Of a DNA stretch of 64,000 nucleotides, positions 1-36,202 are shown one piece after another. The position numbers were made by a program, and so were the translations under genes. The notes under the pieces are model-generated. The model had not been told where the DNA came from. It saw nothing but the letters and a program-made list of their open reading frames with translations, and ran no database searches. Every line of letters starts with the position of its first letter. The first letter of the stretch is position 1. The DNA comes from Onthophagus taurus. Its lineage: Eukaryota; Arthropoda; Insecta; Coleoptera; Scarabaeidae. The stretch lies in NCBI RefSeq assembly GCF_036711975.1, contig NC_091976.1:28768001-28832000 (forward strand). The letters are read 5' to 3'.

Positions 1-53
1 TAAATTAAAAAAATTAATTAAATTAATTAATTAATAAAAAAAAATCTTTTTAG

Positions 54-3000
54 TAACCGAAATTCCATTGGAATTAATTGATAACGTAACAATTCATATC
101 GAATCGAAAGAAATCGAAGCAATTTGTTCGGATAACAAAAAATTAAGCGAATTAAATAAAAACGTTGCCGTCGATTTAGAAAAATCCCTTAAAGAAGCTT
201 GTAACGACATCGATTGTTTCGTTAAAACCGAATCTGAATGCGAAGAGGTTTCGGAAAAAATTAAAAGGCAAACTCAAGAGACCCAAAAAAGAAAGAAGCC
301 GAAAAGGATTAAAGTCAAATTGCGATTAAACGCGAAAAATAAACCCAATAAAAGGAAGAAATTAAAAAGGATTCGAGATGATTTAAAAAATATTGAATCG
401 TTGAATGGTAATCCTGTTATTGCTATTAGATTTGAAGCTGGAACTATTATTTGTCCCGATGGGTGTGTTGTAAGAAAACAAAAATGTGGTAAGAAATTAA
501 ATATAGTAAAACAAGTTGCTCTATTCTATGTTTATAGATAAACTCGGGGTATTCCCCGAGAACTAGGACTATACCTAGAACTAGAATTATTTGCGTTTAG
601 ACTTTAGAAGGGTTTAGACTTTCCTTAGCAGTATTTAGTTTTCTGCAAGCAGTATCTATCCTTTCCTGTTGGAATCTAGTCCATTACTAACAGTATATAG
701 TCTTCCAGTAGCAGTATTTAGTGTTGTGCAAGCAATATTTAGTATTTTATAAGAAGTATCTAGTCTTCCATTTGCGGAATTTAATCATCTACAAGCAATA
801 TTTCATATTCTGCATGTATTAAATAAGCTTGTATTACAAGTGTGTGTGATTGATTTTCAATTATCAGTACCTAATCTTCTTTCACTAGTATTTTGCGCCC
901 CGCAAGCAGTATCTTGTTCTATTGAAGCAATATCTAGTCTTCTACAAGCAATATTTAGTCATTTACAACCTGTATCTAACCTTCTGTATGTATTAAGTTG
1001 TCTTGTATTACAAGTGTTGTGTCTGGTCTTCCATTAGCAATACCTAGTCTTTTTCCAGAAGTAGGTAGCCTTCTGCAAGACAGGTCTAGACTTTCCTTAG
1101 CAGTATATAGTTTTCTGCAAGCAGTATCTATCCTTTCCTGTTGGAATCTAGTCCATTACTAACAGTATCTAGTCTTCCAGTAGCAGTATTTAGTGTTGTG
1201 TAAGCAGTATTTAGTATTTTATAAGAAGTATCTAGTCTTCCATTTGCGGAATTTAATCATCTACAAGCAATATTTCATATTCTGCATGTATTAAATAAGC
1301 TTGTATTACAACTGTGTGTGATTGATTTTCAATTATCAGTACCTAATCTTCTTTCACTAGTATTTTGCGCCCCGCAAGCAGTATCTTGTTCTATTGTAGC
1401 AATATCTAGTCTTCTACAAGCAATATTTAGTCATTTACAACCAGTATCTAACTTTCTGTATGTATTGTCTTGTATTACATGTGTTGTGTCTGGTCTTCCA
1501 TTAGCAATACCTAGTCTTTTTCCAGAAGTAGGTAGCCTTCTACAAGAAAGGTCTAGACTTCCCTTAGCATTATTTAGTTTTCTGCAAGCAGTATCTATCC
1601 TTTCCTGTTGGAATCTAGTCCATTACTAACAGTATCTAGTCTTCCAGTAGCAGTATTTAGTGTTGTGCAAGCAGTATTTAATATTTTATATGAAGTATCT
1701 AGTCTTCCATTTGCGGAATTTAATCATCTACAAGCAATATTTAACTTTCTACATGTATTAAATAGTCTTGTATTACAAGTGTTGTGACTGATTTTCAATT
1801 ATCAGTATGTAATCTGCTTCCACTAGTATTTTGCGCGCTGCAAGCAGTATCTTGTTCTATTATAGCAATATCTAGTCTCCTACAAACAATATTTACAACC
1901 AGTATCTAACCTTCTGTATGTATTAAATTGTCTTGTATTACAAGTATTGTGTCTGGTCTTCCATTAGCAATACCTAGCCTTTCTCCTGACGTAGATAGCC
2001 CTCCGTAACAAGGATCTAGACTTTCCTTAGCAGTATTTAGTTTTCTGCAAGCAGTATTTATCCTGTTATGTTGGAATCTATTGCATTACCAACAGTATCT
2101 ACCATATTTGTTGATGCTCAGTTCCAAGTGAGATGGAAAAAAACGCCCATCAGCTATCTCTCTTCTGGAACTCTTCACTCTGTTTAATGATGTCGTTAGC
2201 CCTTAACTCATACATTCCATCTAAGTTAGCCGATAATGTCACGACTCTAAATTTTGTAGTAACATTTGTCATAGAGTGCGTCACATTATCAATATCCCCA
2301 CCATCCCCATTTCACAACGTCGTCGATTTCACAAATGTGGCTAATAATTTGAACCTTAATTGACCCATGTCTACCTTGTGAATCGACGATCAGCTTGACA
2401 CCGCTGGTGATAGTTTGGAATGTCATCTTCGAAGTTGCTCCCAAACATTCTGCAACTGGCCACATGTCCTTGAAAACAGATCGCTAACTGCTGGATGTCA
2501 CCTTACAACGTTCAGATTTGCTCACCAAGTCACATAGGCAGCAGACGTATTGTTGCTGCTTATCAACTCTTCCTCTTTTAGGAGCTCTTCTATTTGACAC
2601 CCATTTGATACATAGTTCTAAAAATATATACCGTCAGTAGGAATTATTTCCACATTTCGACATTACTGTAGCCCAAAATCAGTAATTTCATCGATATTTT
2701 CACTGGTCGCTTTTTAACAAGAGATAACGAAAACAACTGATGTCTGCCATGGTCACGCAATATTTAACTTTCTGCATGTACTAAATAGTCTTATATTGTA
2801 AGTATTATGACTTATTTTTCATTATCGGTATCTAGTCTTCTACCAGTAATACCTAATCTTCTGCAAGCAATATTTACCAGTATCTAACCTTCTGTATGTA
2901 TTAAGTTGTCTTGTATTACAAGTGTTGTGTCGATAATGGTGTTCCATTATCAGTACTTAGTCCTTTTCCAGCTATAGGTAGCCTTCTGCAAGCAGTATCT

Positions 3001-6000
3001 AGTCTTCCTTTAGTAGTATCTAGTTCTCTGCCAACACTATCTAAACTTCTGCCAACACTATCTCACTTCTGCTAACAGTATCCAGTAATCTGCAAACGCG
3101 CAGTCTTTTATTGCCTGTAAAAGTTATCCAGTAGTTATCCGTAGTCTTAAGACGCACTGTATATTATTATTATATTAAATATAATACATTTAATATTAAA
3201 AATGACGTTTATTATGACATTATAAATCAAAATTGACGTTTAAGAAGTGTCACATAGACATATCTCCAAAAATAATTAAAAATGTTTTTTTTTAAGTACG
3301 ATGTCCCCTTGGAACATTTCATAATAAAACGTCTCAAAGTTGCCAAAGTTGTGATTTGGGATCATACAACGATAAGGAAGCACAAACCCAATGTTTTTCA
3401 TGCCCTGAAAACAAATCAACAAAAAAATTGCATTCAAAATCAATAACAGCTTGTATTGGTTTGTTATAAAAAAATTTATCATTATTATTCTCAAAATAAA
3501 TCTTTTTCTTCCATAGAAAAATGCCCACCAGGAAAAATTGGCCGTAAAAGAACAATTCGACCGAGAAATTACCCAAATATAACAATAACAAGAGTAACCC
3601 TTCCCCCTTATTGCAAATCTTGCCCTCTCGGAACTTATCAATCAAATTACGGTCAACACGAATGTTTAAAATGCCCTCTTGGTTACACGACTAATTCTGT
3701 TGGAAGTAAATCGATTTATGATTGCGTTCCATCCGTTGACTTAATATGCACGAATCTTACAATATGTAATCAAGGAAAATGTATCGTTCAAGATAACTTT
3801 TATTACTCCTGCGAATGTAATCATTTATTTATCGGGTCGCATTGCGAAACTAAAATTAATACATGTTCGTATTCACCATGTCTTCATGGTGGAATTTGCA
3901 AATTAAAATCTGATGGTTTAGAATACTTTTGTTCATGCCCCGAAGGATTTTCAGGTCAAAATTGTGAAATTCCCGAAGAAAAATGCACATTAAAATGCGA
4001 AAACGGCGGGACGTGTTTGCATGATGATCAGGATGAGATTTGCGTATGCAAAGATAGATTCACAGGAAAATTATGTAACCAAAAAATATCTGATTATTGC
4101 ACCAATAGTTTTAAAATTTGCGAAAATAACTCGACTTGCATCAACGAAGGAAATTCAGTTAGATGTATTTGTCAACCCGGTTTTATTGGGAGACGATGTT
4201 CTTATCTTCCATGCGATTTTCAACCTTGCCCAAAACAATCAATTTGCGAAAACATTTATGCATCAAATGCAACAAGAAAAAGTTATGTTTGTCAATGTTA
4301 CGATGGTTTTACCGGAATAAATTGTACGGAAAGGGTCGATCCGTGTTTTAGAAATAAATGCAAAAATAATGGAAAATGTAGAGTTATCGGAAAATCTTAC
4401 ATTTGTGAGTGCCAAAATGATTTTTATGGCGAATTTTGCGATTTTGAAGCTAAGGAGAGATACATTTTAAGTTTTAATAGAGCCGGAGTTACAGATTCAG
4501 TACGATTAGGTGGATTCAAAGACAGTCTAAATGAAGTAAGTCAATTAATTAATTAAGTCATTAATTAATTTTTTTTTTATTAGATTTCAGTTTGTTCTTG
4601 GATTCACACTTTAGATAACTTCAATTATGGAACTGTTTTATCTTACGCCACAAGAGAACATGATAATGCTTTTACAATCACTGATTATGCGGGGTAAAAA
4701 TGTATTAATTTGTTTTAATTAATAATAAAGAAATAATTTTTTTGCAGGCTTGTTTTTTATATCAACAATAAAACGATTATTAGCGATATAAAACTAAATG
4801 ATGGATTTTGGCACTATTTCTGCTTTACATGGTCTGGATTAACGGGAACTTATCAGGTTTATGTCGATGGTAAAATTGCTCAAAAAGGAAATGAATTTGC
4901 TAAAGGAGAATATTTAGGAGGTAAAATAAAATGCCTAAATCAATCCTTGAATACTCTAATACAAGATTTGCCTTTCAAAAAGATAGTCTCCAAATAATAG
5001 AGTTCTGGTCATTAGCTTATTTGCAGCCGCAGTAGTAATAAGACGATTCAGGTTATCAGTGACTGTTAAATTGATCCTAGTTGGGTTGGGTCGGGTTTAG
5101 CTGCCCGATTCGTAAGGAAATTTCTACTGGATAAATTTTACTGGTTATAGAAGACTGATAGTGCTTGCAGAAGACTGGATACTGCTAGCATGAGTGAGAT
5201 TATGTTGGCAGAAGTTTAGATAATATTGGCAGAGAAGTAAATACTACTAAGGGAAGACTAGATACTGCTTGCAAAAGGCTTCCTACAGCTGGAAAACGAC
5301 TAATACAAGACAACTTAATACATACCGAATGTTTTATACTGGGTAAATATTGTTTGTAGAAGACTAGATACTGCTGCAATAGAAGAAAATACTGCTTGCA
5401 GAGTGCAAATACAGGTGGAAGAAGACTAAATACTGATAATGAAAAATCAGTCATAATACTTACAATACAAGACTATTTAATACATGCAGAAAGTTAAATA
5501 TGGCTTCTAGATGATTAAATTCTGCAAATGAAAGACTAGATACCTCTTATAAAATACTAGATACTGCTTGCAGGAAACTAGATACTCCTAAGCGAAGTGT
5601 TGGCACTTGTTGCAGAAGGCTACTTACTGCTGGAGAAGGTAGAGGTAGTGATAATGGAAGACCAGACACAACACTTGTAATACACGACTACTTAATACAT
5701 ACAAACGGTTAAATACTAGTTATAAATGAGTAAATATTGCTTGCAGAAGATTAGGTATTGCTTGTAGAAGACTATATACTGCTGCAATAGAACAAGATAC
5801 TGCTTGCAGAGTGCAAAATACTGGTGGAAGAAGATTAGATACTAATAATGGAAAATCAGTCACAACACTTGTAATACAAGCTTATTTAATACATGCAGAA
5901 AGTTAAATATTGCTTGTAGATCATTATATTCCGCTAATGGAATACTAGATGTGTCTTATAAAATACTAGATACTTCTTACAAAACACTATATACTACTGG

Positions 6001-9000
6001 AAGACTAGATACTGTTGGTAATAGACTAGATTCCAATAGGAAAGGATAGAAACTGCTTGCAGAAAACTAAATACTGCTAAGGGAAGTCTAGACTCTTCTT
6101 GCAGAAGGCTACCTACTTCTGGAGAAAGACTAGGTACTCATAATGGAAAATCAGACACAACACTACACAGTACAACGCAAGACCACAAGTACCATGACCA
6201 AAAATATGATGATTTAACTCAACTTATCAATACACAAAATTGCTTAGTTTAGCCCCTAGAGAACCTCAATGGATTTTATTCATTTTTTGGTCTTGCATTT
6301 GTATCAATAGACTACAGCTATTTGTGGAATAAACTCTAATTTCGAAAATTATAGGTTGCTTAAAAACTTTGTCACAATAAATTATGCATTCATATTTTTT
6401 TAACCCCCTTTACAAACACTATCATTCTTTTTTTTTCTGAGTAGTTACTTTAATTTAAAAACTATTTTCTCTCTTACAAAATTTCAGTTGGGTGAATGGT
6501 TTAGCCACAAAAAAATATTTTCTAAATCTCCACAAGCGCGAATGAGTGCTATAAGGTAACACTAATAACGTTTTTTTTTTTAATAGTTGGCTAGGTATAA
6601 TTAATTTTAAAAACAAAAACAGTTTGTCACTTAAACCTGACAGCGGTATTCCTATTTTTAGTCCTCTAGCAGCTAAACTAAGCAATTTTGTATATAGATA
6701 AGTTTAGTTAAACCATCATATTTTTGGTCAAGGTCTTGCGTTGTACACGTCATTTCGGGACACCTGTATAAGACAACTTAATACATACAGAAGGTTAGAT
6801 ACTGATTGTAAATGAGTAAATATTGCTTGCCGAAGATTAGGTATTACTTGTAAAAGACTGCTGCAATAGACCAAAATACTGCTTACAGAGTGCAAAATAC
6901 TGGTGATAGAAGACTGTATACTGATAATGAAAAATCAGTCATAATACTTACAATACAAGACTATTTAATACGTGCAGAAAGTTAAATATTGCTTGCAGAT
7001 GATTAAATTCCGCTAACGAAAGACTAGATACTTCTTATAAAATACTAAATAGTGCTTACACAACACTGAATACTGCCACTGGAAGACTACTAGAGATACT
7101 ATTGTTAATGGACTAGATTCCAAGAGGAAAGGATAGATACTGCTTGTAGAAAACTAAATACTGCTAAGGAAAGTCTAGACCCTTCTTGTGGAAGGCTACA
7201 TACTTCTGGAAAAAGACTAGATATTGCTAATGGAAGACCTGACACAACACTTGTAATACAGGACTATTTAATACTTACAGAGAGATAGATACTGCTGAAG
7301 ATAACTAAATACTGCTAATGGAAGACCAAATACTTCTGATAAAATACTGGATACTGCTAGAAGAACACTAAATACTGCTGGCAGAAAAAAGACCTGACAC
7401 AACACTTGTAATACAGGACTATTTAATACTTACAGAGAGGTAGATACTGCTGAAGATAACTAAATACTGCTAATGGAAGACCAAATACTTCTGATAAAAT
7501 ACTGGATACTGCTAGAAGAACACTAAATACTGCTGGCAGAAAACTATATGATACTGAAAGACTTGATGCTGTTGGTAATAGACTAAATACTGCTAAGGGA
7601 AGATTAGACACTGCTTGCAGAAGGCTAGGTTGCTGGCAAAAGACTAGGTACTGCTATAGAAGACCTAGGCTTTTTCATTGAACTAAAACTGGACTAACAC
7701 TATACCTAGAACTAGAATCATTCGGGTTTAGCCGTCTTTAGAGACGTGTGGCTAAACCCAAATGATTCTAGTTCTAGGTATAGAGTTAGTTCTACATAGT
7801 AACAGTGCAAGTATAAAACTAAAACTAACACTATACCTAGAACTAGAATCATTTGGGTTTAGCCATCTTTAGAGACGTGTGGCTAAACCCAAATGATTCT
7901 AATTATAAGGAAAGTCTAGACACTTCTTGCAGAAGACTACCTACTTCTGGAAAAGGACAAGGTATTGCTAATGGAAGACCAGACACAACACTTGTAATAC
8001 AAGACAAGATACTGCTTGCAGATGACTAAATACTGCTCTAATGGAAGACCAGATACTTCTGATAACATACTAGATACTGCTTGAAAAACACTAAATATTG
8101 CTGGCAGAAGACTAAATGATACTGGAAGACTTGTTGCTGTTGTTAATGGACTAAATACTGCTAAGGGAAGATTAAATACTGCTTGCATAAGTATACCTAT
8201 TGCTGGCAAAAGTTTAGTTACTGCTAATAAAAGCCCTGGGCTTTCATCTTTCCGAATCCCTCCGAGAAGTAGAGTAGAATTTATCCACTGTCTGTTCAGA
8301 ACTCTACCAACAGGATACAAGAAAATGGCATCTTACCTCTGCACTTCGAGCACTCAGCACCGTTAGATTGGATTCTGCTAAAATCAAAGTGTAGGACCCA
8401 ACCCAGAATTTCTCGAGTTATTTTCCTCGATTCGGACATAGCATAGTTTATAATTTATTTTTTTCATCATCTAGGATGTACTCCAAGAAGATATCTTTCT
8501 TAGCAACAAAAAATTGGTCTTAAATCGAAATTCTAGAACTGGTGTAGACTTACAACTGAAATAACTCTCTAATCACTTCCACATTGAATCTCTGACTTCT
8601 CTTAAATTCATTTTGTTTTTCTAAACCTTATTATTATTTCAGGAAATGGAACAATGATGATTGGTCAAGAACAAGATATAATGGGAGGAAGATTCAGCCA
8701 ATCCGAAGCATTTCTAGGAAAACTCTCCGAATTTGATATGTGGAGTAGAATCTTAGACATAAAAGAAATCAAATCGATTATGAATTCGTGCAATGGCCAG
8801 CCGTTTGGTGACGTTATTTCTTGGCCAATTTTAAAAGATTTCGTTTTCGGCCACGTCCAAGTATTTCGTCTTTATTTTAAATTGAGTCAAAATGAGTTTT
8901 GAATTTAATTTTTTAGATTGAGTCATCACCATTTTGCCAACAATGCAAACCGCCCAATCCCTTATACAATGGCCACATTGAAATCAAAAATAACACCGCT

Positions 9001-10212
9001 TTTTACATCTGCAACAAAGGATACACTTTAAATGAGGAATTGTATTTAAATGGAAGAAAATGTAATAAAGCTACTGAATGGGAAGATCGAATCGAACCTT
9101 TTTGTAGAAGTAAAATTTTTTTTTGATTATATTAATTAATTATTAATTAAATATAATATTTAGCTGTTTATTGTGGTTATCCGGGATATTTACGCCATGG
9201 AAGAATTTTAGGAAGGCGTTATTCATATCAAAGCGAAATAAAACATATTTGCAATCCAACTTATTCCTTAATAGGTTCCTCAATAAGGAAATGTACAGAT
9301 AACGGAACATGGTCTCCAGAACCTCCAAAATGCGAAGGAAAACGTTGCAAAGCTTTTAAGACTCCAAATAATTCAAAAATTACGATTTTTTCCGATTATA
9401 GTGACGAATACATCGAAGGCGTTGATAGTTTCGATATGGGAACATCAATAGAAATTTTATGCGAAAATGGAAGTAAATTAATCGGGGAAAATTATTTAAC
9501 ATGCAATGAAAATGGCCAATGGGATAATGAAATTCCCGAATGCGTTTCGACCAAACCAAAATTACCATGTCCTTTAGACCATATTCCGGCTCCACCTGAA
9601 AATGGGTTTATTGTAGAAAAAAGTAAAGAAGAAGCTTTTAATGGCACCGGAAATGTTATTCAATATAAATGTAATGATGGGTTTTTAATGGAAGGTGTTT
9701 CAACGTCAACGTGTATTATTGATGGGTATTGGAGTCAACCTAACGTTACTTGTAAAAGTAAGTAAAAAATTTACGAATGAATCGTTTTTAATTTTTTATT
9801 AGTTGCAGCAAAAAAGTGTCCTAATCCTCCAAAAATTAAAAATAGCAAAATAATGAAAGCTTTTGAGAAGAGCTTTTACGTAGTTGGGGATAACATCACG
9901 TTCGAGTGTTTACCCGGTTATAAATTGCTGGGTAACTCTATCGTTAGATGTATTGACCCTGGAAAATGGACAAGAATTAAACCAAAATGCATCAGTAAGA
10001 AAATATTTCACATCTCATTAAAAGTATTAATCTATTTTATTTTAACAGAAATTTCTTGTGGTAAACCAGACGTTGCGGAAAGTACCGAAATTTTAGGAGA
10101 GTCCTATTTATTCGATGATACGATAACTTTACTTTGCGGTGATAATAAAAACTATAAGTTAACTTGTGGTAGTTCGGGAAGTTGGATAGGAGATATAAAT
10201 AATTCTTGTTAA
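54..10212 (+). CDS. SVEP1-like secreted adhesion protein (EGF, pentraxin, sushi), 3' part, 10 visible exons
   Basis: Visible exons: 54-488, 3297-3458, 3517-4535, 4584-4693, 4748-4920, 8643-8860, 8917-9109, 9164-9757, 9803-9994 and 10049-10212 (stop TAA). All junctions are GT-AG and keep frame. Exon 1 begins after a splice acceptor, so the N-terminus lies left of the window; it encodes a Lys-rich linker. Next come two ephrin-receptor-like GCC2_GCC3 repeats (CPLGTY, CPLGYTT motifs), six six-Cys EGF domains in exon 3, and a pentraxin/LamG domain (exons 4-6: WHYFCFTW, YVDG, GQEQD..GG, FDMW). Six sushi domains follow and the protein ends in Cys with no membrane segment. This domain order matches the C-terminal part of SVEP1-type extracellular proteins. 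A matrix or cell-adhesion role is inferred from the family. Introns 489-3296 and 4921-8642 are swollen by repeats. Confidence 0.88.
560..3160 (+). repeat. Minisatellite array A, higher-order unit about 470 bp
   Basis: The array fills the first large intron of the SVEP1-like gene. The basic motif is about 20-30 bp (AGTATCTAGTCTTCtgcaagc and variants). It is organised into a higher-order repeat: the anchor GACTTTCCTTAG or a close variant recurs at 617, 1089, 1556 and 2019, giving periods of 472, 467 and 463 bp. The array is broken by unrelated sequence at about 2115-2760 and resumes to about 3125. Its open frames are repeat artefacts. Confidence 0.85.
2115..2760. other. Unique island inside array A
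   Basis: About 640 bp of ordinary-composition sequence interrupts the minisatellite array. I see no convincing protein, no clear terminal inverted repeats and no RNA gene. The open frame at 2133-2363 shows no family motif. It may be an eroded transposon or captured unique DNA. The array resumes at TATTTAACTTTCTGCATG. Confidence 0.5.
6171..6770. mobile_element. MITE with long terminal inverted repeats, inserted in array B
   Basis: The left end TACAACGCAAGACC...CATGACCAAAAATATGATG is matched inverted at the right end (CATCATATTTTTGGTCAAGGTCTTGCGTTGTAC). The pairing continues inward for about 85 bp in total (AAAATTGCTTAGTTTAGC inside). The right end runs on through TCATTTCGGGACACCTGTATA, a Tc1/mariner-like terminus, while the left outer end looks truncated. 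There is no transposase. The flanking array units show it inserted into the minisatellite. Confidence 0.72.
7692..7902. repeat. Two tandem foldback (hairpin) elements
   Basis: Copy 1 (7692-7792) and copy 2 (7817-7902) are near-perfect palindromes. The left arm CCTAGAACTAGAATCATT-(C/T)GGGTTTAGCC pairs with GGCTAAACCCAAATGATTCTAGTTCTAGG around a short loop with GTCTTTAGAGACG or a one-base variant. Copy 2 is nearly identical in arm and loop. Related full or half copies lie near 561-600, 12136-12240, 13408-13446, 19875-19905 and 59610-59670. No coding capacity is visible, so this looks like a small foldback/MITE family. Confidence 0.82.
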
Positions 10213-10440
10213 GATATATTTTTATAATATTTAACCTTCGAGCGGGCGCGCCCGATTTTATAACACGAGCGGGCGCCTATCATAAATTTTATGATTTAGG
10301 TCCGTATTAATAAGTATTACGTTATTTTTAATAAAACACATTTTGCTAGAGTAAAAATATTTAGTTTATATTAAACAATTGTTAAAAACATAAAATGAAA
10401 TCGATTCATTTTTGAAATCTAACAACATTTACAAACTACA
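10213..10440. other. 3' flank of the SVEP1-like gene with a piggyBac-type terminus
   Basis: Soon after the stop codon, TTAACCTTCGAGCGGGCG at about 10231 is followed by a second GAGCGGGCG motif. The TTAA start and GC-rich subterminal repeat resemble a piggyBac-like end, and the element at 54417 also begins TTAACCC...CGAGCGG. No matching right end was found, so this is a tentative transposon remnant. Confidence 0.35.
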
Positions 10441-10881
10441 TATAGTAGAAACCACGAGAGCTGGCAGTGACAGATCGCTTAAATATGATATGAATCAAGA
10501 TATGGACGTACGACTTAGATTATTTCACCACATACATTTAAATGTAGGTTATGTTAGTAATGGAGGTTATATGTCAAACATTGTCAAAGATATTATTTAA
10601 TGATTTTCCTTTCAAAGAAAACATTTTCGGTTTGTACACTAACAGATTCATGGCAACGCTCACAAGACGTTTCGATTTGAGGTTATAATTATAGAGTTAC
10701 ATCCCTTAGAAGAACAGACGTACTTTTTCGACGTGGCCATTTGAATTGTACAGCAGACATATTAAACTAATGCTATCTCGTTCTAACACACATTACTCTC
10801 TAGCGGTTTGTGAACTACGTATGGCATTTGTAAGAGCGGAAAATGATGATTTACTGCCAGCTCTCGTGGCGTCTACTATAC
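10441..10881. mobile_element. Non-autonomous MITE with 26-bp inverted ends
   Basis: The left end TAGTAGAAACCACGAGAGCT and the right end, read inverted, TAGTAGACGCCACGAGAGCT match over 26 bp with two differences. The flanks are TA on both sides, as for a TA-target Tc1/mariner-type insertion. The interior has no recognisable transposase. The open frames at 10412-10600 and 10746-10967 fall in or next to it and match nothing I know. Confidence 0.65.
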
Positions 10882-11224
10882 CGGGAATCACAGACTACTA
10901 CCAGACGGCCAACTCCATTGTAAAAGCGAGATCCAATATATACCGGTCTCTCTCACTCATCATGTAACACTTATGTAGATGGCAGTGAGAAGCAAAAATG
11001 CAATTGGCGCCAAATTCAAATCTTTTATTTAATTTAAAATTTGAATACAGAAATATTTTTGATCTAATGTGCTTTTTGTGGATCTATTAAGCTATATTTA
11101 GTTTGCGTAAGCCAAAATAAAATAATTACAGCTTAATAGACCAATAAAAAGCACCTCAAATCAAAAAGTTATAATTTTATAATTTCAATGTAAAAGAAAG
11201 AGAAATCTATTGGCGATTTAAAAT

Positions 11225-11440
11225 TTTATATTTAAATTACAATATAAGGTCGGGGAAAATCTGCAAGACAGACATTCAGCCTGGGACCTTGGGCAGCCGG
11301 ATAGTATGGGGTTGGAGCCCATCATTGGATCTCCGACCCACTAAAAACCCAATTCCTCGTCTTCTCCGGGATGACCCTCACAGGTTGGGTTGGGTTGGCC
11401 GTTTTCGTCTGTGGTTTTCAATTGATAAAGTACATATAAC
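11225..11440. repeat. GC-richer dispersed repeat, possibly a retroelement 3' end
   Basis: This is a block of higher GC with CAGGTTGGGTTGGGTTGG and a stretch resembling the untranslated end of a non-LTR retrotransposon. I cannot name the family and no protein is encoded. The remaining sequence from 10882 to 12130 shows nothing I can support as a gene. Confidence 0.3.
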
Positions 11441-12135
11441 AAACACCAACTGCTTCTTACCCTAAGTGACACGGTGTTATCAAAAATTTGAATACTTAAT
11501 TTGAATACTATTGAAATTAAAAATTAATATAATTAAAATACTAGCCTGTCCCTATTCTTGGGAAAACAAAATAATTTTCCAACTTCATCTTCGCTACATC
11601 CACACACAATGCAAAACATTTTTACAATAATTATTCTCGAAAATTATTCGTAAAAAATACAACGCAAAAATAGATAATAAGCACAAATAAGACAATAAAC
11701 GCAAAAGGACTGTGTGACATGTGACATACATAAAATGTCAAAACCGCTTAAACAAAGTCAACAGCTTTCTGTAATATTACTAACGACATGTACGCCATCT
11801 ACTAAGGATTTCTATCAAGATGACAAAGAGAAAATATCGGTATTATGATGTGATAATAAGAGATAGAGAATGGCCTATCATTTTCCCGGTGAGCTAACTA
11901 ACTCTCTGCCTTACTCTGTGCCGGGAATTTCATATAAGTCGCAATATATGAATGCAGTGACCATAGTTACGAAACTACTGTGCACTTGCACTGTAAAATG
12001 CAACAAAGCTTAATAGTACAGGCATTGGGTAGTTTTGCAGAGGAAAAGTTTTGCTTGGAAAAAAGTGACGTCCTTAGTTAAAAAAGTGACAACATAGTGA
12101 TTTCTTATGCTAACTAGCGCTACCTACCATTGTCA

Positions 12136-12240
12136 CTAGAACTAACATTAGACCTAGATCTAGAAACATTCGGGTTTAGCAGCACGTCTCTCAAGACTGC
12201 TAAATCCGAATGTTTCTAGTTCTAGGTTTTGTGTTAGTTT
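12136..12240. repeat. Foldback element, same family as 7692-7902
   Basis: The left arm has CTAGATCTAGAAACATTCGGG followed by TTTAGCAG, and pairs with CTGCTAAATCCGAATGTTTCTAG around a short loop. A half copy of the same arm (ACTAGAACTAACATTAGACC) lies at about 13408-13446. Between 12245 and 12650 there are further short palindromes built on CAATTGAGTTAACTCA-like words, probably more MITE debris. Confidence 0.75.
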
Positions 12241-12847
12241 AAATAGTACTGCTAGTTAGAGATGTGTAACACTGCGCTACGCTACGCAATTGAGTTAACT
12301 CAGTACAGTATGTTACATGCGCTGATACCCAATTTTAAAATGAGTCAACTCAATTGCGCCACCGTTGGCGTAGTATAGCACACCGGTGTGGCTTGAAGAT
12401 TTACAAATATGTATGTAAGTGAAAATTCCAGCCCTTAATCACGTATAAAATTTTCATTTGCTAGAACTTGGAACGAGGCAGTAGGCGATACCGGCGTAGT
12501 TGACCGGCGAGAGATAGATGTGATACGTCCAGCAACTGTGTTATGGCGCAATTGAGTTGATACATTGCGCTAACTCACTTAGGTGCGCTAATATCAGAGT
12601 GTCAGCGCAGCAAATTTTGCTACGTTACTCTGCACGACATGGCACTAGTATGACGTACTGTGCAATTAAGTGTAAGTAAGTGCAATGTCTTGTCAATTAA
12701 GTGCAGGTCAGAAAAGTGTGTAAACCGTGGTCGCAACGAACAGATTTTTATCAAAAAAAGTGTATAATATGTTGAGGTTATGTTAATGTCAAAAAAATAT
12801 AACTTTATAATTATAATTTTTTCTTTTTATAATAACTTTATTACAAC

Positions 12848-12976
12848 TTAAGCTATTAATATACAAACTTCACTAACAGCTTTAATTTTATCTTCTGCAC
12901 ATTTCGAGAAGAATTTGGCCTTAACAATGACGGGCTGATTTGGAATTCGTCCTTTGCCTAATAATTTATAATAACC
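12848..12976 (-). pseudogene. RpL27A: Orphan terminal exon of ribosomal protein L27a
   Basis: On the minus strand a splice acceptor (TTTTTTTAG) is followed by 42 codons and a stop: [20 protein letters not shown] followed by [22 protein letters not shown]. This is the C-terminal exon of eukaryotic eL15-family RpL27A ([21 protein letters not shown]). No upstream RpL27A exon is visible in the 1.8 kb to the right before the next gene. The last residues differ from the highly conserved VGGVCVL ending. The kept intron boundary means a genomic fragment rather than a retrocopy. It lies between GTGCA-rich repeat blocks (about 12640-12740 and 13200-13400). It is most likely a captured or duplicated fragment. 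Confidence 0.75.
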
Positions 12977-13569
12977 CTAAAAAAACAAATTAATATCTTA
13001 TTTATAGTCTGTTGTCCATTTATCTATCTACTATCTTGTCCATTTTCTATTGCTTCTACTGGGATTGAATGTACTGTGTTCTCTAATACAACAAATATTA
13101 ATTATTATAAGGTTTGATTTTTTAATATGTAATATTAATTATAACAAAACACGCTTTCAAATATTCCGCCATTTTCGTTACACTGAATTACACTGCACTT
13201 ATTGAATTTAATCGAAAGCAGGTGCAACAAAATCTGCACTAACTTGCACCAGCTGCACGAAGTTGCACTGCGCATGGCCCAACGAACAGTATGAGTGCAA
13301 CTGCACTAAACTACACTATCCCCAACGAACACACAACATCTGCACTAAACTGCTTAATGCAAGTAGTGTAGTCCCAATGAACAAAGCTATGGTTAGTGCT
13401 AGTGCAATACTAGAACTAACATTAGACCTAGAACTAGAAACATTTTATGTGTTTACAATATAGAGTATAAAATAACCCAGTAAACAAGAAACATCTATAT
13501 TCATATACCGGACAGATACGATTTTTACGAAACGTATTTAATTAAGCGCCTTTCACACGATCAATACAT

Positions 13570-14135
13570 ATTGTCAATAATCAGTCAGAGCCTGAATGCA
13601 CTTCACAATTCGAGCAAGTTATCATTGTTTTTGACCGTTTTTTACATATTATGAATTGCTTACATTTACAGCATTTTGTGTAGTATTGAGTTGGTTGTGT
13701 TTCGGACGTTCCGCAATCAGCAGCCATGTAGAACATTTGTAAAAACGCTCGAATATCCTTTGACAGCGTAATTATTTGAGCTCATAATTAGTTGCTCTTT
13801 CATTAAAGTAATTGCTAAATTACTTAAGAAAATTCTTCGTCGACACTGATTTCCCGCAGAATGTGAAATACAATATTTGCGAGTTTATTCGTTAGGCAAC
13901 GAACATCTTATCAACCGTATACGCGGGAATTTCACATTCTCTGAGTGACTATCATGTTCATTTTGAGCAATTTTTTCTTCTTCATCGGATATATCGCTGT
14001 CATCGATACTTTCCTTAGGTTCCTCTTCCAAAAATCTAACAATCCATCCATCAAATTATCATTTCCTGACATTCTGAATAAAAATAAAGAGATCATAAAT
14101 TTTCAGCGTTACTTTCGTGTTTTAAAAATAAAAAT
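13570..14135 (-). pseudogene. Internally deleted piggyBac-like transposase remnant
   Basis: On the minus strand, about 14130-13930 encodes an acidic stretch (ESIDDSDISDEEEKIAQNE) typical of piggyBac transposase N-termini. About 13735-13570 encodes a Cys-rich tail (YTKCCKCKQFIICKK, ITCSNCEVH) before a stop, like the C-terminal zinc-binding domain of that family. The DDE core is missing. I read it as a deletion derivative that kept both protein ends, but the assignment rests on short motifs. From 14160 to 14749 I see only AT-rich intergenic DNA. Confidence 0.5.
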
Positions 14136-14749
14136 TTAAAAATATTAACCTACCTTAATTTATTAAGAATAATACAAACAGGTGCGTATGAGTATTTTGT
14201 ACACAAACTTACTTAATCTCACTAATTTACTTTTTTTTTAATTTTTAAGCCTCTCTGCTAAAGAAAAGTTAATTTATCCGGAAATTACGTCACTCTACCC
14301 CTTAAACACAATTAATTATTAATAATAATTTATTCCAAGAACTACAGATGATTTTACAAAGCAGATTCTTTTATTGGAATTAATAGTACTATTTTTAAGC
14401 CAGAATGTTGTAATTCCAGTAATCATTCATACCTTAGAATGAGATGTTTCTTTTGAATAAGCAGGAACGTAGTATTTGTACAATGTTAGAATGTATTGAT
14501 GTTATGTTGGCATATGGAATGGACTGTTGAGAAGCAAAACACACCTTTTTCATTACAAAAAGTGCATAAAAAGATCATTATAGAGGTAAATATTTAATCT
14601 TGACCAAATTTGTATTAATTAAAATCAAACAAACCTTTATATCTCGTTAACAAATTATTTGTAAACACAATTAACCCAAAAAAACACCATATAAAACCAC
14701 ACCAACCCAAAAAAAATCCTCCTAAACCATTAATAACATCAAAAAAATA

Positions 14750-16552
14750 ATGAAATTTTCATTAACTTTTATATTAGTGACAAAATTTTCAAATTTACCA
14801 TTAATTTTTGGACTCAATCCCGATTTATTTCTTAAACCCGACTCGAAATTAATCGAAACGTTTAAAAAAATCATCTCAAACAACTTCAAAAATGACACCT
14901 TAATGTTTTACGGCTTGAAATGGGAGCAAGTTCCGAAGAAGAACGCGGTGATTCTAACTCAAAGTAAAATTCTTTTCAAACAAACGGATGAAATTAATAA
15001 ATTCAAATGGATCAGCAACAATCAAATGATAAGTGTGGTATTTTTTATTAAAAACGAAACCGACGTGTTGTTCTCGAAAAGATTACTTGCATCGAAATCG
15101 TTTTTGAAACGAAACGTTTTGGTGATTTTTAGAAATAAAAAATATTTAAATTCGAGTCAAGATGAAGTTGTGAGTGAATTGGTACGAATTTGTGGGCGAA
15201 ATGGTTTGTTTAAGATTGCGTTTGGTTATGTTAATGGAAGCAATTTTGAGTTATTTTCTTGGGAGCCGTTTGATGAGAGAAATTTTTGTGGTAAAAATTT
15301 TTATTTAAAGAAATTGGATTCTTTTGAGAATGTGTTTAAGGGGAAACGATATAACATGAAAGATTGTTCCTTAAAAATTACTTATGTAAGAGATGAAACT
15401 TTAATTACACATGTTAATAGAAAACATCCGGGTATTTTAATTTCTTTGTTTGAATTGATTCATAATTCAACTGGAATTAAGATGTTTTATGAAAATAATT
15501 TAAGTTTTCAAATTGAGTACAGAGATAAAGGAATTTTTACTTCTGCGTTAAATTATCTATCTAATGGGAGTACGGATGTGCTTTTAGGGCACCTTTTTAT
15601 GAACTTATCCCAGGAAAATACACAACCAGGTCCGCAATTATACACGGATGATATTTATTACACAGCGAATAAATCGAAGAAGTTATTGTATCGGAATATA
15701 ACGAGACCGTTTCATTTTTCAATTTGGGTTGCTATTTTATTGACTTATGTAGTTTTATTTTGGTTAAAAATTACTTTTAAAAAGTATTACTTAATTAAGA
15801 TTAATTGTACCCAATCAATTTTTGATATTTTCCGGTTATCTTTAAACATCCCTTTGAATAAGCTGTCAAAGAAAACTCCTTTAAAAGTTTTAATGATGTC
15901 TTATATCTTTTATTGCATCATTATGGATGCTATTTACCTCAGTAAATTGAGTAGTGTGTTTACAATACCAAAAGCATTCGTTCCAACAATCGAAACTCTT
16001 TATGTCAACGGTATTTATGTGAGTTTAACATCTTATGTTGATAAAATAACCAATTTATGCAACTTAATCACGAATGAAAACGTTAAAAAGTTTATTAAAA
16101 TCTATAATACAACTCAATATCAACTTTTAAAGAATACAGTTAACGCAAACGTTACTGGGTCGGTTCTTTTTAAATCAACTTTAAAAACATATCCCGCTGA
16201 ATCATATTTGGTGCACAGATTTACCACAAAAATGAGGGCTTTGTATTTGTGTTATTATTTAAGAAGATTTAACATCATCAACGAGCCAATTATTTATTGG
16301 ACAAACGAAGTTTTAGAAAAGGGGTTTTTAACCAAGTGGTGGTCAGATAAAATCTTACACACAACTAATTATACTTTATTAAGAATCAACTTAAAACCAA
16401 CTTACGTTGCTTTATCTTTGCAGCATTACGAAGAAGCAATTTTTATTTTAATCGTTGGATATGTATCGAGCGCAATTATTTTGTTGTACGAAATAGGATT
16501 AAATAAAATTTTGAACCGCATTTATAAAATGAAATATGTAATGCCTTTTTGA
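14750..16552 (+). CDS. Divergent ionotropic receptor (IR), single exon, 600 aa
   Basis: This is an intact intronless frame starting MKFSLTFILVTKF (signal-peptide-like). A ligand-gated channel core follows: TM1 at about 321-340 (FHFSIWVAILLTYVVLFWL), a short pore segment, TM2 at about 380-400 (VLMMSYIFYCIIMDAIYL) followed by the SVFTIP motif, a second ligand-binding lobe, and TM3 at about 561-583 (AIFILIVGYVSSAIILLY). The IR-typical segment FNIINEPIIYWTNEVLEKGF followed by LTKWW lies before the last TM. Length and lack of introns fit the large, lineage-specific divergent IRs often expressed in gustatory neurons. The usual glutamate-binding Arg/Thr/Asp-Glu set is not evident, so the ligand is unknown. 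A polyadenylation signal AATAAA lies at about 16597. Confidence 0.88.
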   Translation: MKFSLTFILVTKFSNLPLIFGLNPDLFLKPDSKLIETFKKIISNNFKNDTLMFYGLKWEQVPKKNAVILTQSKILFKQTDEINKFKWISNNQMISVVFFIKNETDVLFSKRLLASKSFLKRNVLVIFRNKKYLNSSQDEVVSELVRICGRNGLFKIAFGYVNGSNFELFSWEPFDERNFCGKNFYLKKLDSFENVFKGKRYNMKDCSLKITYVRDETLITHVNRKHPGILISLFELIHNSTGIKMFYENNLSFQIEYRDKGIFTSALNYLSNGSTDVLLGHLFMNLSQENTQPGPQLYTDDIYYTANKSKKLLYRNITRPFHFSIWVAILLTYVVLFWLKITFKKYYLIKINCTQSIFDIFRLSLNIPLNKLSKKTPLKVLMMSYIFYCIIMDAIYLSKLSSVFTIPKAFVPTIETLYVNGIYVSLTSYVDKITNLCNLITNENVKKFIKIYNTTQYQLLKNTVNANVTGSVLFKSTLKTYPAESYLVHRFTTKMRALYLCYYLRRFNIINEPIIYWTNEVLEKGFLTKWWSDKILHTTNYTLLRINLKPTYVALSLQHYEEAIFILIVGYVSSAIILLYEIGLNKILNRIYKMKYVMPF

Positions 16553-16639
16553 ACAAATTAAAATTGTTTAAATTTTATTGTTGCGTTATTGATCTAATAA
16601 ATAATTAATTAATCAAAAAATTTCGGATTTCGAGGTTAA

Positions 16640-17640
16640 ATTAGGGTGAAATATTAATTGTTATCACTTATCTGGTTTTAATTTAGGGTGAAACAAACAA
16701 TTTGGACCGGAAACTTGGTTGTGTCTGGATCAGGATCCTCTTCTTCTTTACAGGATAGGATGTTATTCAGGAGCTTCTTGGTAACAGGAACAGTTGTTAT
16801 TATTCAGGATTATTAAATTTAATGTTATGTGTACTTAACTCTCAATCTGGTTTTCTTCCATAAAATTTTGAGGTTATGTTAGAACTTTTTGATAAGTGAG
16901 GTTATAAAACCAGTTTTTTTTAACAAAACGACGTGTACGCTAAGACGTTGTTAAATCGACTGCCCCTCCTCCGAAAATTTCACTCTTTATATAGGATTTT
17001 CCTGAAACAAATGAAAAACGGTACCTCTGATTGGTTGAAATTTTCGATGGGTCATCCATTTTTTAATTTTACTGTTGTTTTGAGGTTATAAAATCAATTT
17101 AATTAAATTCTACTTTATTCCTTTGAATTTGCCCAAATAAAGATTTATTATTCTTTTCTTTCAGAATTGGCCAAAGGATTCGACGAAAATTTCACCCTAC
17201 GTTATGAATTTTTATGTGAAAACTTTGTAACTACGAAACGGATTTTCATCAACAAATAAATGTTATCAAGCTCCTAATTATCGTTAAACTAACTAATGAG
17301 TACCTTAATTATAATATTTAAGTGGTTTTAAGTCTTTTAATAACAAATTTAAATTATAATTGTCAAATTTAAACGTAAAGTTAGAATTTCAATTCTAAAA
17401 TTTATTTATTAAAAAAAAATAATAAAAATGTTGTAAAAAATAAAAAAAACGTTTATATAGTTATAAAACTTAATTAATTAATTAAAAAAGAATAAGTATA
17501 ATAAAAGAATTGTTTAATTTAGGCTAAATGAAGATTAGTTCAAATGATTTTTTTTTGATGTCAGCTGTCAAAGTCATTTTATGGTGGTTATGTAAAAATT
17601 AAATACATCAACTTCAAAAAAGTATTATTATTAAAACTGG
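16640..17640. other. Intergenic region upstream of NDUFA10
   Basis: About 1 kb between the IR and NDUFA10. It contains scattered AGGTTATGTT/GAGGTTATAAAA words common elsewhere in this window, and long A/T runs near 17400-17520. A possible exon-like piece after CTTTCAG at about 17163 was considered and not accepted. The last 100 bp presumably hold the NDUFA10 promoter, but no clear TATA box or initiator can be named. Confidence 0.4.
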
Positions 17641-17642
17641 TC

Positions 17643-19018
17643 ATGGCTTCTTTAATACGGATTACATTCACACGAATGTTAAATAATGCGAAAACATCAA
17701 ATATGGAAATTATAAGAAATATATCAGGAAAGACGATGCGAGCTACTCTTCCTGCACCCAAACCAAAACCTTACGATTACAACAACAAGAGTTACCCAAC
17801 GTATAAATTCTTCCTCGATAGAACAACCAGTAGATTCACCGAAAATACAAAGGTAAAATTAAAACGTTAAAACCAAAAATTAAATAATAATTAAGTTACA
17901 ATTTAGGTGATTGTGGTCGAAGGTCCATTAGCAGCTGGAAAATCAAAATTTGCTAAAGAATTAGCCGATGAATTAGAAATGAAATATTACCCGGAAGCAA
18001 ATTTAGATATGTGGTACATAAACGATTACGGATTCGACACCCGTACGTTAGACGACCAACTTCCTGAGTCTTGCAAGAGTTTCGACGTAAATAACTTCAT
18101 GTTGAACCCAAAACACCGTTTAACAGCACAATTTCAAGTAAAACAATACGCGGTGAAGTAAAAATTGCCCTAAAATACCCCAACAAAAAAAAAATCTAAC
18201 CTAAAAAAATTTAATTTTAAGGTTTTCCCAATACATTGATGCTTTAGCTCACTTATTAAGCACCGGACAAGGTGTAATTTTAGATCGTTGCGTTTATTCC
18301 GACTTTGTTTTTGTTGAAGCGATGTACAGCCAAGGATACATTTCAAAAGGAGCTCGTTCGTTTTATTACGATTTGCGTAAAAGTTCGATTGGGGAATTAT
18401 TGAGACCTCACTTAATTATTTATTTGGATGTACCTGTTGGTAAAGTATTAGAGAATGTTAAAAATCGTAACATTCCATACGAATGTAACTCTCCCGTTTT
18501 AAATGCGCAATACTTAACTACGATGGAGCAATTTTATAAGCAAAAATATCTTAAAGAAATGAGTGTAAGATCGGAATTACTCGTTTATGATTGGACCAAT
18601 GAAGGAGAGACCGAGGTTATTGTCGAAGATATTGAAAGAATGAAATTCGAGAATTACGATGATCAAAATCCGAAATTTGAGGATTGGATGGAAGGGAGCG
18701 ACGAAGCGTGGGCACTTTTAAGGCAAAAATATAGCGATACTAAAGGATCGTTAATGTACTTTCTTAATGTTCCGAGATATGATGTTCCTGAATTAATTAC
18801 AGATGCTGATGATTCTAAGGAATACAGGGATATAATGAATAATGTAAATTTATGTAATTTTATTATCTTAGCGTTGTTTAATGTGTTTAATTTTTTAGGC
18901 TCCTGGAAATGAGTATGTTAAGGGATATAATGCATCTTTGGGAGATGGTAGTTTGTGGTTTAAGACGAAATTACCACATCGTGAAACTTTACCTTTACGC
19001 GAAAGACGAATTTTTTAA
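17643..19018 (+). CDS. NDUFA10: NADH dehydrogenase 1 alpha subcomplex subunit 10 (complex I 42 kDa), 4 exons
   Basis: Exons 17643-17852, 17907-18157, 18222-18843 and 18899-19018 join in frame through 54-64 bp introns to give 400 aa. Residues 1-40 are a basic, Ser/Asn-rich mitochondrial targeting region. A deoxynucleoside-kinase-type fold follows, with a P-loop (EGPLAAGKSKF, residues 75-85), then DALAHLLSTGQGVILDRCVY-SDFVF, LIIYLDVPV and YLTTMEQFYKQKYL. The C-terminus is KLPHRETLPLRERRIF. These are hallmarks of NDUFA10/ND-42, an accessory subunit in the complex I membrane arm of the mitochondrial inner membrane. The length matches insect orthologues (about 400 aa). The start is the first ATG and gives the targeting peptide. 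The gene appears intact. Confidence 0.95.
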
Positions 19019-19276
19019 AATTACTAAATTGTTATTGTGTTAATAAAAGTAATTTAAAATAAAAAAGCATTTTTGTATGATTTAAGTCAAGGTTGAGTAA
19101 ACCTGCTGTTTTTATGAACGTATCCCTCCACAAAGGCCTTGCTGTGACGTCATTGGAAGAATTGACATTTCTATGTTTTTATTTATACAGGGTATTTCAC
19201 TTAAGAAGCAATATACAAAAATATTAAAAAAAAATAAAATTAAAAAGTATAAAGCGAAATATTAACGGTTATAATT

Positions 19277-19820
19277 TTATTATTGTTAGGTTATCCAACT
19301 TGACTCGGTTACCATGGTGATTAAGATCTAAATAATGCAAGTGCTTGTCAAAATTGAAATTGAATTTAAGTTTTTTTTAAGAAAAAAGTCTTATTTAATT
19401 GCTTTAAAAGGCTGTATTTAACTCAAAATTGGTTTATCTAGGGTATTATAAACAAGGTAAGTGGATTAAATCAAAAAATTTATTTCTCTTAATTAGAATC
19501 GATTTATATTAACTACAATTAACGAATTTGTTATGAATACCAGATAATCGTAAAGAATTCGAATTGTTTTAAAATTAATAAAAATTAGGTTAGAATTGAT
19601 AAAAAAATTGGAATAAAATTTTATTATTTTAAGGTTATCCAACTTGACTCGGTTACCATGGTGATTAAGATCCAAATATTGCAGTTGCTTGTCAAAATTG
19701 ACGTTGAATTTAAGTTATTTTAATGAAAAACGCGTAATTAATTGGATTTAAAGGTTGTATTTAATTTAAAATTTGTAAATGGATGAAATTATAAGCAAGG
19801 TAAGTGGATTAAATCAAAAA
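19277..19820. repeat. Tandem duplication, period about 343 bp
   Basis: Two copies of a block containing AGGTTATCCAACTTGACTCG followed by GTTACCATGGTGATTAAGATC (at about 19287 and 19630). Both copies end in AAGGTAAGTGGATTAAATCAAAAAA. They are diverged by scattered substitutions. No gene is encoded, and the open frame at 19493-19675 on the minus strand is in repeat sequence. Confidence 0.75.
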
Positions 19821-19974
19821 AAAAAGTTTTTAGATCAATTAAAATGTAGAAGAATTTAGGGTTAAATAACAATTAAAACTAGAACTAGAAAAGTCGGGTT
19901 TAGTCGTGAAAAAAACTTTCAGTTGTCAAAGTCAACTTTAATTTTATTATATTCGCAATCTTCATAAAATAACC

Positions 19975-20665
19975 TTTAAAGTCAGTCCAAACTTGACGCA
20001 TTTATCTCAAATAACCAGAAAGTTCGAACTTTCAACTTTTAATTTTGACATGTTTGTCAACTTTATAAAAAATCCTTTAAAATGAGTCCAAACTCGACAT
20101 ATTTAACTTTAATATTAATGGAAATACAATCACTTCCGGTTTGAAACGTCAACGTCAATTTTGACATATTTGTTACCTTCATTAAAAAAAACCTTTAAAA
20201 TGAGTCCAAAGATGACGCACTTATCTCAAAAAACAAGAAAGTTAGAATAAAAAATGTTAAAAACGAAGTTAGCAACAATGAAGATAGCAATTTAATTATT
20301 AAATATTAATACCAACCTTAATTTTTACTTTTTTTTGTTGTATTTTTGTTTTTGTGATAAATTTTAAAACATTTTATAAAAATTAAAAATTTGTCAAAAT
20401 GACATGGTCATTTCAAACCGGAAGTTGCTTATATCTCGAGTAATATTGGAATTAAACGTATCATGTTTGGACTCATTTTAAAGGATTTTTCACAACGATT
20501 ACAAATATGTCAAAATTGACGTTGACATTCTTAACCGGAAGTTGATCATAACTTCATTAATATTGAAGATAAATATGTCGTGTTTGTACTCATTTTAAAG
20601 GATTTCTAATGAAGATTACAAATATGTCAAAATTGAGGTTGACATTTTAAATCTGAAGTTAGTTA
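19975..20665. repeat. Foldback region built on AATGAGTCCAAACTCGACAT repeats
   Basis: The left half (19975-20260) carries several direct copies of CCTTTAAAATGAGTCCAAAC followed by TTATCTC-like sequence. The right half (20400-20660) carries the same words inverted (GTTTGGACTCATTTTAAAGG), together with inverted CTTCCGGTTTGAAA / TTTCAAACCGGAAG. The halves could pair over about 250 bp with mismatches. The same core also occurs in the array at 27110-30290. Confidence 0.7.
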
Positions 20666-24500: not shown

Positions 24501-24780
24501 CTTTGAAATATTCCCAAAATACACCAAAATCATTCTTTTTAATCAAATCATCCTTGTTAAGTATCCTCGAGTTGTTTTTAATTAATTAGAAGCTTTTTGA
24601 TTCACTCCAATCACCTTTTTCATTATTTCTAAATGGTTTAATTTTTCTGGAAAACATCCCCATTAAGTTTTTTTAACTTTTTTCATCTTTTCCAAGTAAT
24701 CTAAAATCATTTTTAATCGATTCAAAGCATTTTGACACACACTAATCACTTCTTTCTATTTCACCATAACCTTGAAACAT
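21530..24780. repeat. Satellite array, unit about 268 bp, roughly 12 copies
   Basis: The marker CCTCGAGTTGTTTTTAATTA (or a one-base variant) recurs at about 22419, 22687, 22955, 23226, 23493, 23760, 24028, 24297 and 24566, a period of 267-271 bp. Each unit also has TTTTTCTGGAAAACATCCCC, CACACACCAATCAAGTTTTT and AATACACCAAAATCATT. Copies left of about 22200 are more diverged and shorter, as expected at an array edge. The array stops about 80 bp before the stop codon of the polycystin-like gene. Confidence 0.9.
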
Positions 24781-36050: not shown

Positions 36051-36202
36051 GAAAACTGTATTTGTTAATAACCCAAATTACGCTAAAGTATCGTATATTA
36101 ATCTAAATATTTTTATTTATTATTATTTAGATGGTTTAATTTTTACTATTAAGAAAAAAATCACAAATTACTTATTAAACAAACAGGTATCATTTTATCA
36201 TT

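Follow-up and report, generated by a model that had tools for sequence, protein, structure and literature searches.

The window analysed here, a stretch of 64,000 nucleotides from Onthophagus taurus, contains an SVEP1-like gene in which two long introns, 489-3296 and 4921-8642, flank four exons. The introns carry arrays A and B, respectively, of one diverged 21-bp minisatellite family. Of the domains expected in order in an SVEP1-like gene, the Ephrin-receptor-like, EGF and pentraxin domains are identified by Pfam, and putative sushi-like repeats, recognised by eye, come after 8917. The features are:

53..488, plus strand: exon upstream of array A, with AG at 51-52 and GT at 489-490; ends in phase 1
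489..3296, plus strand: intron with array A, 2808 nt, GTAAGA...TTTAAG
561..600, plus strand: half palindromic unit on the outer border of A, 85% to 7692-7731 and 90% to 7823-7862
606..2101, plus strand: main block of array A, 46 plus monomers of 21 bp, higher-order period 467-472
2102..2753: insertion interrupting array A, a fragment and a dispersed repeat of ~90 bp
2754..3134, plus strand: exon-facing block of array A, 10 plus monomers
3297..4920, plus strand: bracketed region, four exons, 1464 nt, phase 1 to phase 1
3297-3458, 3517-4535, 4584-4693, 4748-4920, plus strand: the bracketed exons
4921..8642, plus strand: intron with array B, 3722 nt, GTAAAA...TTTCAG
5124..6164, minus strand: exon-facing block of array B, 28 minus monomers of 21 bp
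6165..6764: element nested in array B, ~600 bp, with terminal inverted repeats of ~90 nt
about 6765..7690, minus strand: second block of array B, 25 minus monomers
7692..7914: two palindromic units in array B, spaced 131 bp, with a 91-nt dyad
7914..8230, minus strand: outer block of array B, 12 minus monomers
8643..8860, plus strand: exon downstream of array B, with GT at 8861

Joining 488 to 3297 keeps the open frame continuous, and exon 8643-8860 carries the frame on from 4920 as well as from 488, staying open in either joining. The four bracketed exons are separated by introns of 58, 48 and 54 nt and encode the Pfam domains Ephrin_rec_like, EGF and the first part of Pentaxin. A sequence-only reading of this DNA had numbered these exons 2-5 and placed half of the pentraxin domain among them. 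There are indeed four, but an acceptor-like AG also precedes the exon that ends at 488, so that this may not be the first exon. The half is approximate: by residue numbers, the bracket takes in about 115 of the 185 residues of Pentaxin. A circle of 3297-4920 would have 1464 nt and an open frame, with no ATG in that frame. The bracketed region gave a single match in the genome search, and an Rfam scan of positions 1-9000 gave no matches at the gathering threshold.

Array A was said to begin at 560, but its monomers start at ~606 and the half palindromic unit occupies the preceding positions. Tandem Repeats Finder describes the main block of A as 3.2 copies of a 472-nt period with 92% matches. 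The sequences that interrupt the arrays are themselves dispersed: the fragment in 2102-2753 has five other partial copies at 77-82% (40 of 81 candidates scored), and the nested ~600-bp element has 39 other relatives at 72-90% (40 of 127 scored). The palindromic unit yielded 1535 first-look candidates, with 170 matches from the 40 that were scored.

That one repeat family lies in opposite orientation in the two introns is borne out by a whole-window scan (score 9) with a 21-bp monomer model trained on arrays A and B themselves. The scan found 58 plus-strand monomers, 56 of them in A, one at 6652 in the nested element and one at 37693, while all 65 minus-strand monomers are inside the blocks of B. 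No monomers were found on either strand in 9001-20000 at this score. BLAST comparison of the two introns returned 113 HSPs at E<=1e-5, of which 111 are inverted; the two direct HSPs are the palindromic unit. Inverted arms are up to 243 nt long, at 87%. At a loose cutoff of E<=1, comparison of 126-nt windows of A with B gave seven matches in the wrong orientation. The whole window has 99 inverted pairs (>=60 nt, <=20 kb apart), and all of the 25 listed join A and B; the best inverted HSP in 9001-64000 is 176 nt at 83% with the low-complexity filter on. Tandem arrays are difficult to assemble, and one of the two could in principle be misoriented or collapsed. This is extremely unlikely given that A and B carry private nested insertions and differ by 7-25% per 126-nt window, and that among strong HSPs direct homology is confined to the palindromic unit.

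A and B are each other's closest relatives among the sequences compared. Their alignment scores 1196 bits, while the next best match among 14 other array stretches is 265 bits for A and 224 for B, and a genome search with A gave 679 bits in B against a best of 266 outside both introns (40 of 686 candidates scored). Their exon-facing ends are also homologous, up to 3134 and 5124, where the alignment stops. The likeness and the shared ends are directly visible, with one and the same array end pointing at the exons from each side. They suggest that a local inverted duplication placed the two arrays in two introns of the SVEP1-like gene, or that conversion has homogenised the arms. The string CTGGATAAATTTTACTGG was considered as an element end; it occurs exactly at 5127 and with two mismatches at 3114, which is where the arrays have their shared ends, and with four mismatches at 8271. 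It was not taken as a family end; three further four-mismatch matches lie far off in the window, and the other fetched array stretches contain one four-mismatch match, at C3:5155474.

The 21-bp family is dispersed genome-wide. With up to 3 mismatches allowed, a 31-mer from it matches the genome 516 times forward and 558 times in reverse, compared with 0 and 0 for the control, and the family is found in association with a palindromic repeat whose units are spaced 131 bp. A second inverted array pair, at C3:27.953-27.956 Mb, has arms identical at 355 of 363 positions and is younger than A-B; for the core between its arms, the scored candidates included no second match. Other neighbours in opposite orientation occur by chance. 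At C3:4.23 Mb neither array is among the other's four best matches, and at C11:30.40 Mb the neighbour is the best match of the small array, but at only 106 bits against 82 for the next, and the large array scores 848 bits against C1. Since these neighbours are not close kin, opposite orientation alone is no sign of local copying. Close kinship also occurs between the arrays at C5:11.200 and C5:11.188 Mb, which are 91% alike over 378 nt. It is conceivable, though rather unlikely, that the 21-bp family and its palindromic partner form a module which, without classic transposon ends, comes to flank single-copy host DNA again and again. If so, locally copied, mutually homogenised arms would plant ready-made hairpins that cause host exons to be circularised or skipped.

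Alternatively, a single transposon of the foldback or Rehavkus type, or a composite, may have moved or captured the intervening DNA, with A and B as its terminal inverted repeats. The foldback element Tetris of Drosophila virilis has inverted arms that contain tandem repeats, with related satellite-like arrays elsewhere in the genome (PMC4079207), and long inverted arms with internal tandem repeats are what is found here. Rehavkus-1_TC of Tribolium castaneum likewise has satellite arrays (TCsat23) in its inverted termini, although its unit is 164 bp rather than 21 bp and the likeness is one of description (PMC10218199). The arm-middle-arm layout recurs in the C3:27.953-27.956 Mb pair. The middle of A-B, however, does not belong to an element, but consists of host exons that share an uninterrupted reading frame with the remainder of the gene and have one match in the genome. 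No 8-mer is shared by the outer flanks of 66 and 75 nt, nor was one found when A alone, B alone or the C3 pair was tried, and the 9-bp target-site duplication of Rehavkus, which is MULE-like, is thus not seen at the A-B flanks; decay could hide a duplication. A transposition step therefore lacks support, and we consider this origin improbable. The transposon-like TCAST elements of T. castaneum are similarly dispersed inverted satellite pieces, some in introns, but each of them is a single element, at most 1181 bp long, with a common non-satellite middle (PMC3411249), whereas the arms of A and B lie in two introns.

The pair is best read as a dispersed repeat that was copied locally and in inverted orientation, much like foldback arms. 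This reading is probably correct, and the strong potential for circularisation and skipping that comes with it is probably a by-product. The premise that the pre-mRNA could form a long imperfect duplex between A and B holds in silico. The minimum free energy (MFE) fold of 489-8642 is -3199.5 kcal/mol, with 1608 of its 2925 pairs joining the two introns, as against -1896.7 kcal/mol and 167 A:B pairs with the B array flipped and -1809.6 kcal/mol and 510 A:B pairs with it dinucleotide-shuffled. The inverted arrangement is thus worth about 1300 kcal/mol in silico, from one fold of each control and with the reservation that MFE folds of 8-kb RNAs disregard kinetics and proteins. Uninterrupted A:B helices of at least 21 pairs number 18, the longest having 34 (G-U allowed). 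The last ~140-180 nt of the A block 2754-3134 pair with 5124-5303, and this exon-facing duplex (2957-3134:5124-5303) has a predicted energy of -245 kcal/mol, whereas 50 mononucleotide shuffles average -60. The acceptor is 162 nt and the donor 203 nt away from this duplex, and the folded stem would be expected to bring acceptor 3296 near donor 4921.

Such a stem would promote some back-splicing of 3297-4920 into the circle as well as a degree of in-frame skipping that joins 488 to 8643, and could be a substrate for adenosine editing or for Dicer and siRNA production. These effects would most likely be by-products of a repeat resembling foldback arms rather than an evolved regulatory device. Selection could instead have kept the pair for circular RNA, in-frame cassette regulation or hairpin siRNAs, as might be suggested by the symmetric phase 1-1 cassette, the open frame of the circle and the stable predicted stem. 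Phase 1-1 modules are, however, common in such extracellular proteins, and both arrays have tolerated nested insertions. Selection for the stem is unsupported because transitions keep and break pairing equally, with 80 wobble-keeping and 89 pairing-breaking changes in 1778 non-redundant aligned A-B columns (p=0.54), and we regard it as very unlikely. Mammalian repeat dimers at circRNA loci likewise showed no specific selection (PMC8516420).

It is also possible that the pair is a pure bystander, with co-transcriptional splicing removing intron 489-3296 before B is made and no detectable effect on the RNA. B is transcribed 1.6 kb after that intron, which may by then have been spliced, and the 48-58 nt length of the three introns between the arrays suggests efficient intron-definition splicing in this gene; the absence of mutational support for selection on pairing agrees with this. 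Nevertheless, the pairing potential is very strong and close to the exons. In the nematode, complementarity between introns drives both back-splicing and skipping, and a 13-nt match matters in zip-2 (PMC8330042); in the fly, it drives back-splicing, and scarecrow needs intronic complementary sequences (PMC12060249). A complete lack of effect is therefore doubtful, though it deserves some weight.

Alu pairs are inverted intronic repeats that promote circRNA formation, and they typify the well-known circularising pairs in introns, which consist of single interspersed repeats. What A and B have in common with Alu pairs, fly laccase2 and scarecrow, and the nematode cases is complementarity in both flanking introns near the splice sites. 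The predicted pairing of A and B exceeds the flip and shuffle controls. They differ in that the known pairs are single interspersed copies, whereas the arms here are 21-bp minisatellite arrays with higher-order repeats over about 1.5 kb. Among the titles and opening abstract lines listed in literature searches, none describes such a minisatellite intron pair, which is not proof of its absence from print, and repeat strings of the family matched no paper. A minisatellite that flanks host DNA with inverted arms of close kinship would supply circularising pairs from a different source, and its arms could lengthen by tandem amplification. The locus would offer a clean natural test, combining in one gene arms that face the exons with the same end first and an in-frame cassette of four exons, with a younger pair in the same genome.

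The window spans C11:28768001-28832000. A partial gene in its first 10 kb encodes ephrin-receptor-like, EGF and pentraxin domains, a set consistent with an SVEP1-like protein, and its seven joined exons (53 to beyond 9000) give a single stop-free frame. Four of these exons (3297-3458, 3517-4535, 4584-4693 and 4748-4920), separated by introns of 58, 48 and 54 nt, are bracketed by long introns of 2808 nt (489-3296) and 3722 nt (4921-8642), most of which are made up of minisatellite arrays A and B, respectively. The repeat features of the two introns are as follows.

606-2101 and 2754-3134, plus strand: array A
561-600: half palindromic unit at the outer edge of array A
2102-2753: insertion breaking array A, with other genomic copies
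5124-6164, about 6765-7690 and 7914-8230, minus strand: array B
6165-6764: element of about 600 bp with terminal inverted repeats of about 90 nt, nested in array B, with 39 other scored relatives (72-90%)
7692-7914: two full palindromic units with 131-bp spacing and a 91-nt dyad, inside array B

The sequence-only reading held that the two introns carry one repeat family in opposite orientations, which is borne out by monomer strands and by direct comparison of the introns. With a monomer matrix trained on array A and the reverse complement of array B, all 56 monomers of array A fall on the plus strand and all 65 of array B on the minus strand, and 111 of the 113 HSPs from BLAST of intron against intron are inverted, the two direct ones both being the palindromic unit. 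The matrix also matched the plus strand at 6652, within B's nested element, and at 37693, and gave no matches over 9001-20000. With the cut-off relaxed, seven wrong-orientation matches in B were found for 126-nt windows of A. In array A, Tandem Repeats Finder detects 21-bp periods together with a higher-order unit of 472 bp (3.2 copies, 92% matches); array B is resolved into units of 21, 42 and 155 bp. The best ungapped A-B arms run to 243 nt (87%), 199 nt (90%) and 170 nt (92%), and the longest 25 of the 99 inverted pairs at most 20 kb apart within the window are all A-B.

The further proposal that a duplex between the arrays loops out the bracketed exons, possibly as circular RNA, is physically plausible and unproven, as judged from predicted folds. 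Folded as one 8154-nt RNA, 489-8642 reaches an MFE of -3199.5 kcal/mol, and 1608 of its 2925 pairs connect the two introns. The figures become -1896.7 and 167 intron-intron pairs when array B is flipped and -1809.6 and 510 when it is shuffled (one fold each). The predicted stem includes 18 uninterrupted helices of at least 21 pairs, the longest being 34 (G-U counted). The exon-nearest duplex (2957-3134:5124-5303) has its arms 162 nt upstream of the acceptor and 203 nt downstream of the donor; its energy is -245 kcal/mol, where 50 mononucleotide shuffles average -60. In C. elegans, back-splicing as well as skipping is promoted by complementary sequences in introns (PMC8330042), and intron complementarity promotes back-splicing of fly scarecrow, for which pair orientation matters (PMC12060249). 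By these precedents, A:B pairing should yield some circle and some skipped mRNA from the gene. The bracketed exons sum to 1464 nt, a multiple of three, with both borders in phase 1; the frame stays open if they are skipped, as computed by joining the sequence, and the predicted circle has an open frame that is without an ATG in that frame. Kinetics could cancel both outcomes, since 1.6 kb remain between the completion of intron 489-3296 and the start of B.

Maintenance of the stem by selection gained no support from a comparison of transitions in 1778 non-redundant aligned A-B columns (83% identical), in which those keeping a G-U pair numbered 80 versus 89 that break pairing (p=0.54), the test being a weak one as tandem homogenisation blurs history. 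Any effect of the pair on RNA is instead probably a by-product, a reading which fits the result for mammalian repeat dimers at circRNA loci, for which PMC8516420 describes no specific selection pressure.

In the genome (290.8 Mb, 33 contigs), matches to a 31-base pattern of about one and a half monomers, allowing at most 3 mismatches, number 516 in forward and 558 in reverse orientation, and the reversed control has none, indicating that copies of the 21-bp family are scattered through the genome both ways round. Array A as the query gave 191 matches from 40 scored of 686 candidates; among the matches listed, those outside the window have 63-86% identity, or 63-70% if longer than 300 nt. In a comparison of 16 array stretches, A and B proved to be reciprocal best matches at 1196 bits, the next best being 265 bits for A and 224 bits for B. 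Identity between A and B is 75-93% per 126-nt window, while windows from A's first 1.2 kb are 90-99% identical to another A unit, so the A/B split, on these identities, probably predates the latest amplification within A. Homology between A and B extends to the exon-facing ends at 3134 and 5124, where the alignment ends.

In its arms the pair is like several satellite-armed elements: foldback elements, which have tandem repeats in inverted arms and can seed satellite arrays (PMC4079207); Rehavkus elements, which are near MULEs and have 9-bp duplications and a minisatellite (PMC6446971), with satellite arrays in the inverted termini in T. castaneum (PMC10218199); and TCAST transposon-like elements, in which satellite pieces are inverted (PMC3411249). 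However, the middle is a block of exons in frame with the gene and with one match in the genome, and the outer flanks (66 and 75 nt), where a target-site duplication would lie, share no 8-mer; the pair is therefore not classed as a foldback transposon.

A second pair lies on contig C3 (27953072-27953434 and 27955352-27955714), where inverted arms of the 21-bp family are identical at 355 of 363 positions. The search of the intervening DNA covered 1250 bases (27954033-27955282): the first 1091 had no match but themselves among the candidates scored (40 of 142), and the remainder is a dispersed repeat of about 130 bp. At two of the places examined, then, DNA that appears single-copy is framed by inverted arms closely related to each other, which adds, at the level of the family, that the 21-bp minisatellite builds such arms around host DNA. 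Related inverted arms are not universal, since neighbouring arrays of opposite orientation have little or no special kinship at C11:30.40 and C3:4.23 Mb.

The palindromic unit is dispersed and in places tandem genome-wide (1535 first-look candidates, 40 scored); it adjoins other 21-bp arrays at C3:4.23, C5:11.195 and C5:11.200 Mb and, by eye, lies beside the array at C3:27.95 Mb. Right before the first monomer, a segment with GGCGCTGTATTTGATATAT is common to four other array loci, L014, L025 and L028 (C5:11.18-11.20 Mb) and L023 (C3:27.95 Mb); L014 and L028 also have the inverted motif GGCGACCTCGGCG upstream. It is possible that this segment is an element end; neither A nor B has a match to it in its flanks. 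Part of the insertion in A (2102-2525) has five other partial genomic copies (77-82%), three on C6 and two, with identical match statistics, on C8.

Elsewhere in the window are further large tandem arrays at 20361-20660, 21840-24762, 27059-30188, 32762-36063 and 38568-43605, with units of about 117, 135/269, 260-293, 180/354 and 173 bp, respectively. Judged by eye, the product of a plus-strand open frame of 608 codons (14726-16549) is similar to an insect ionotropic-receptor-like membrane protein.
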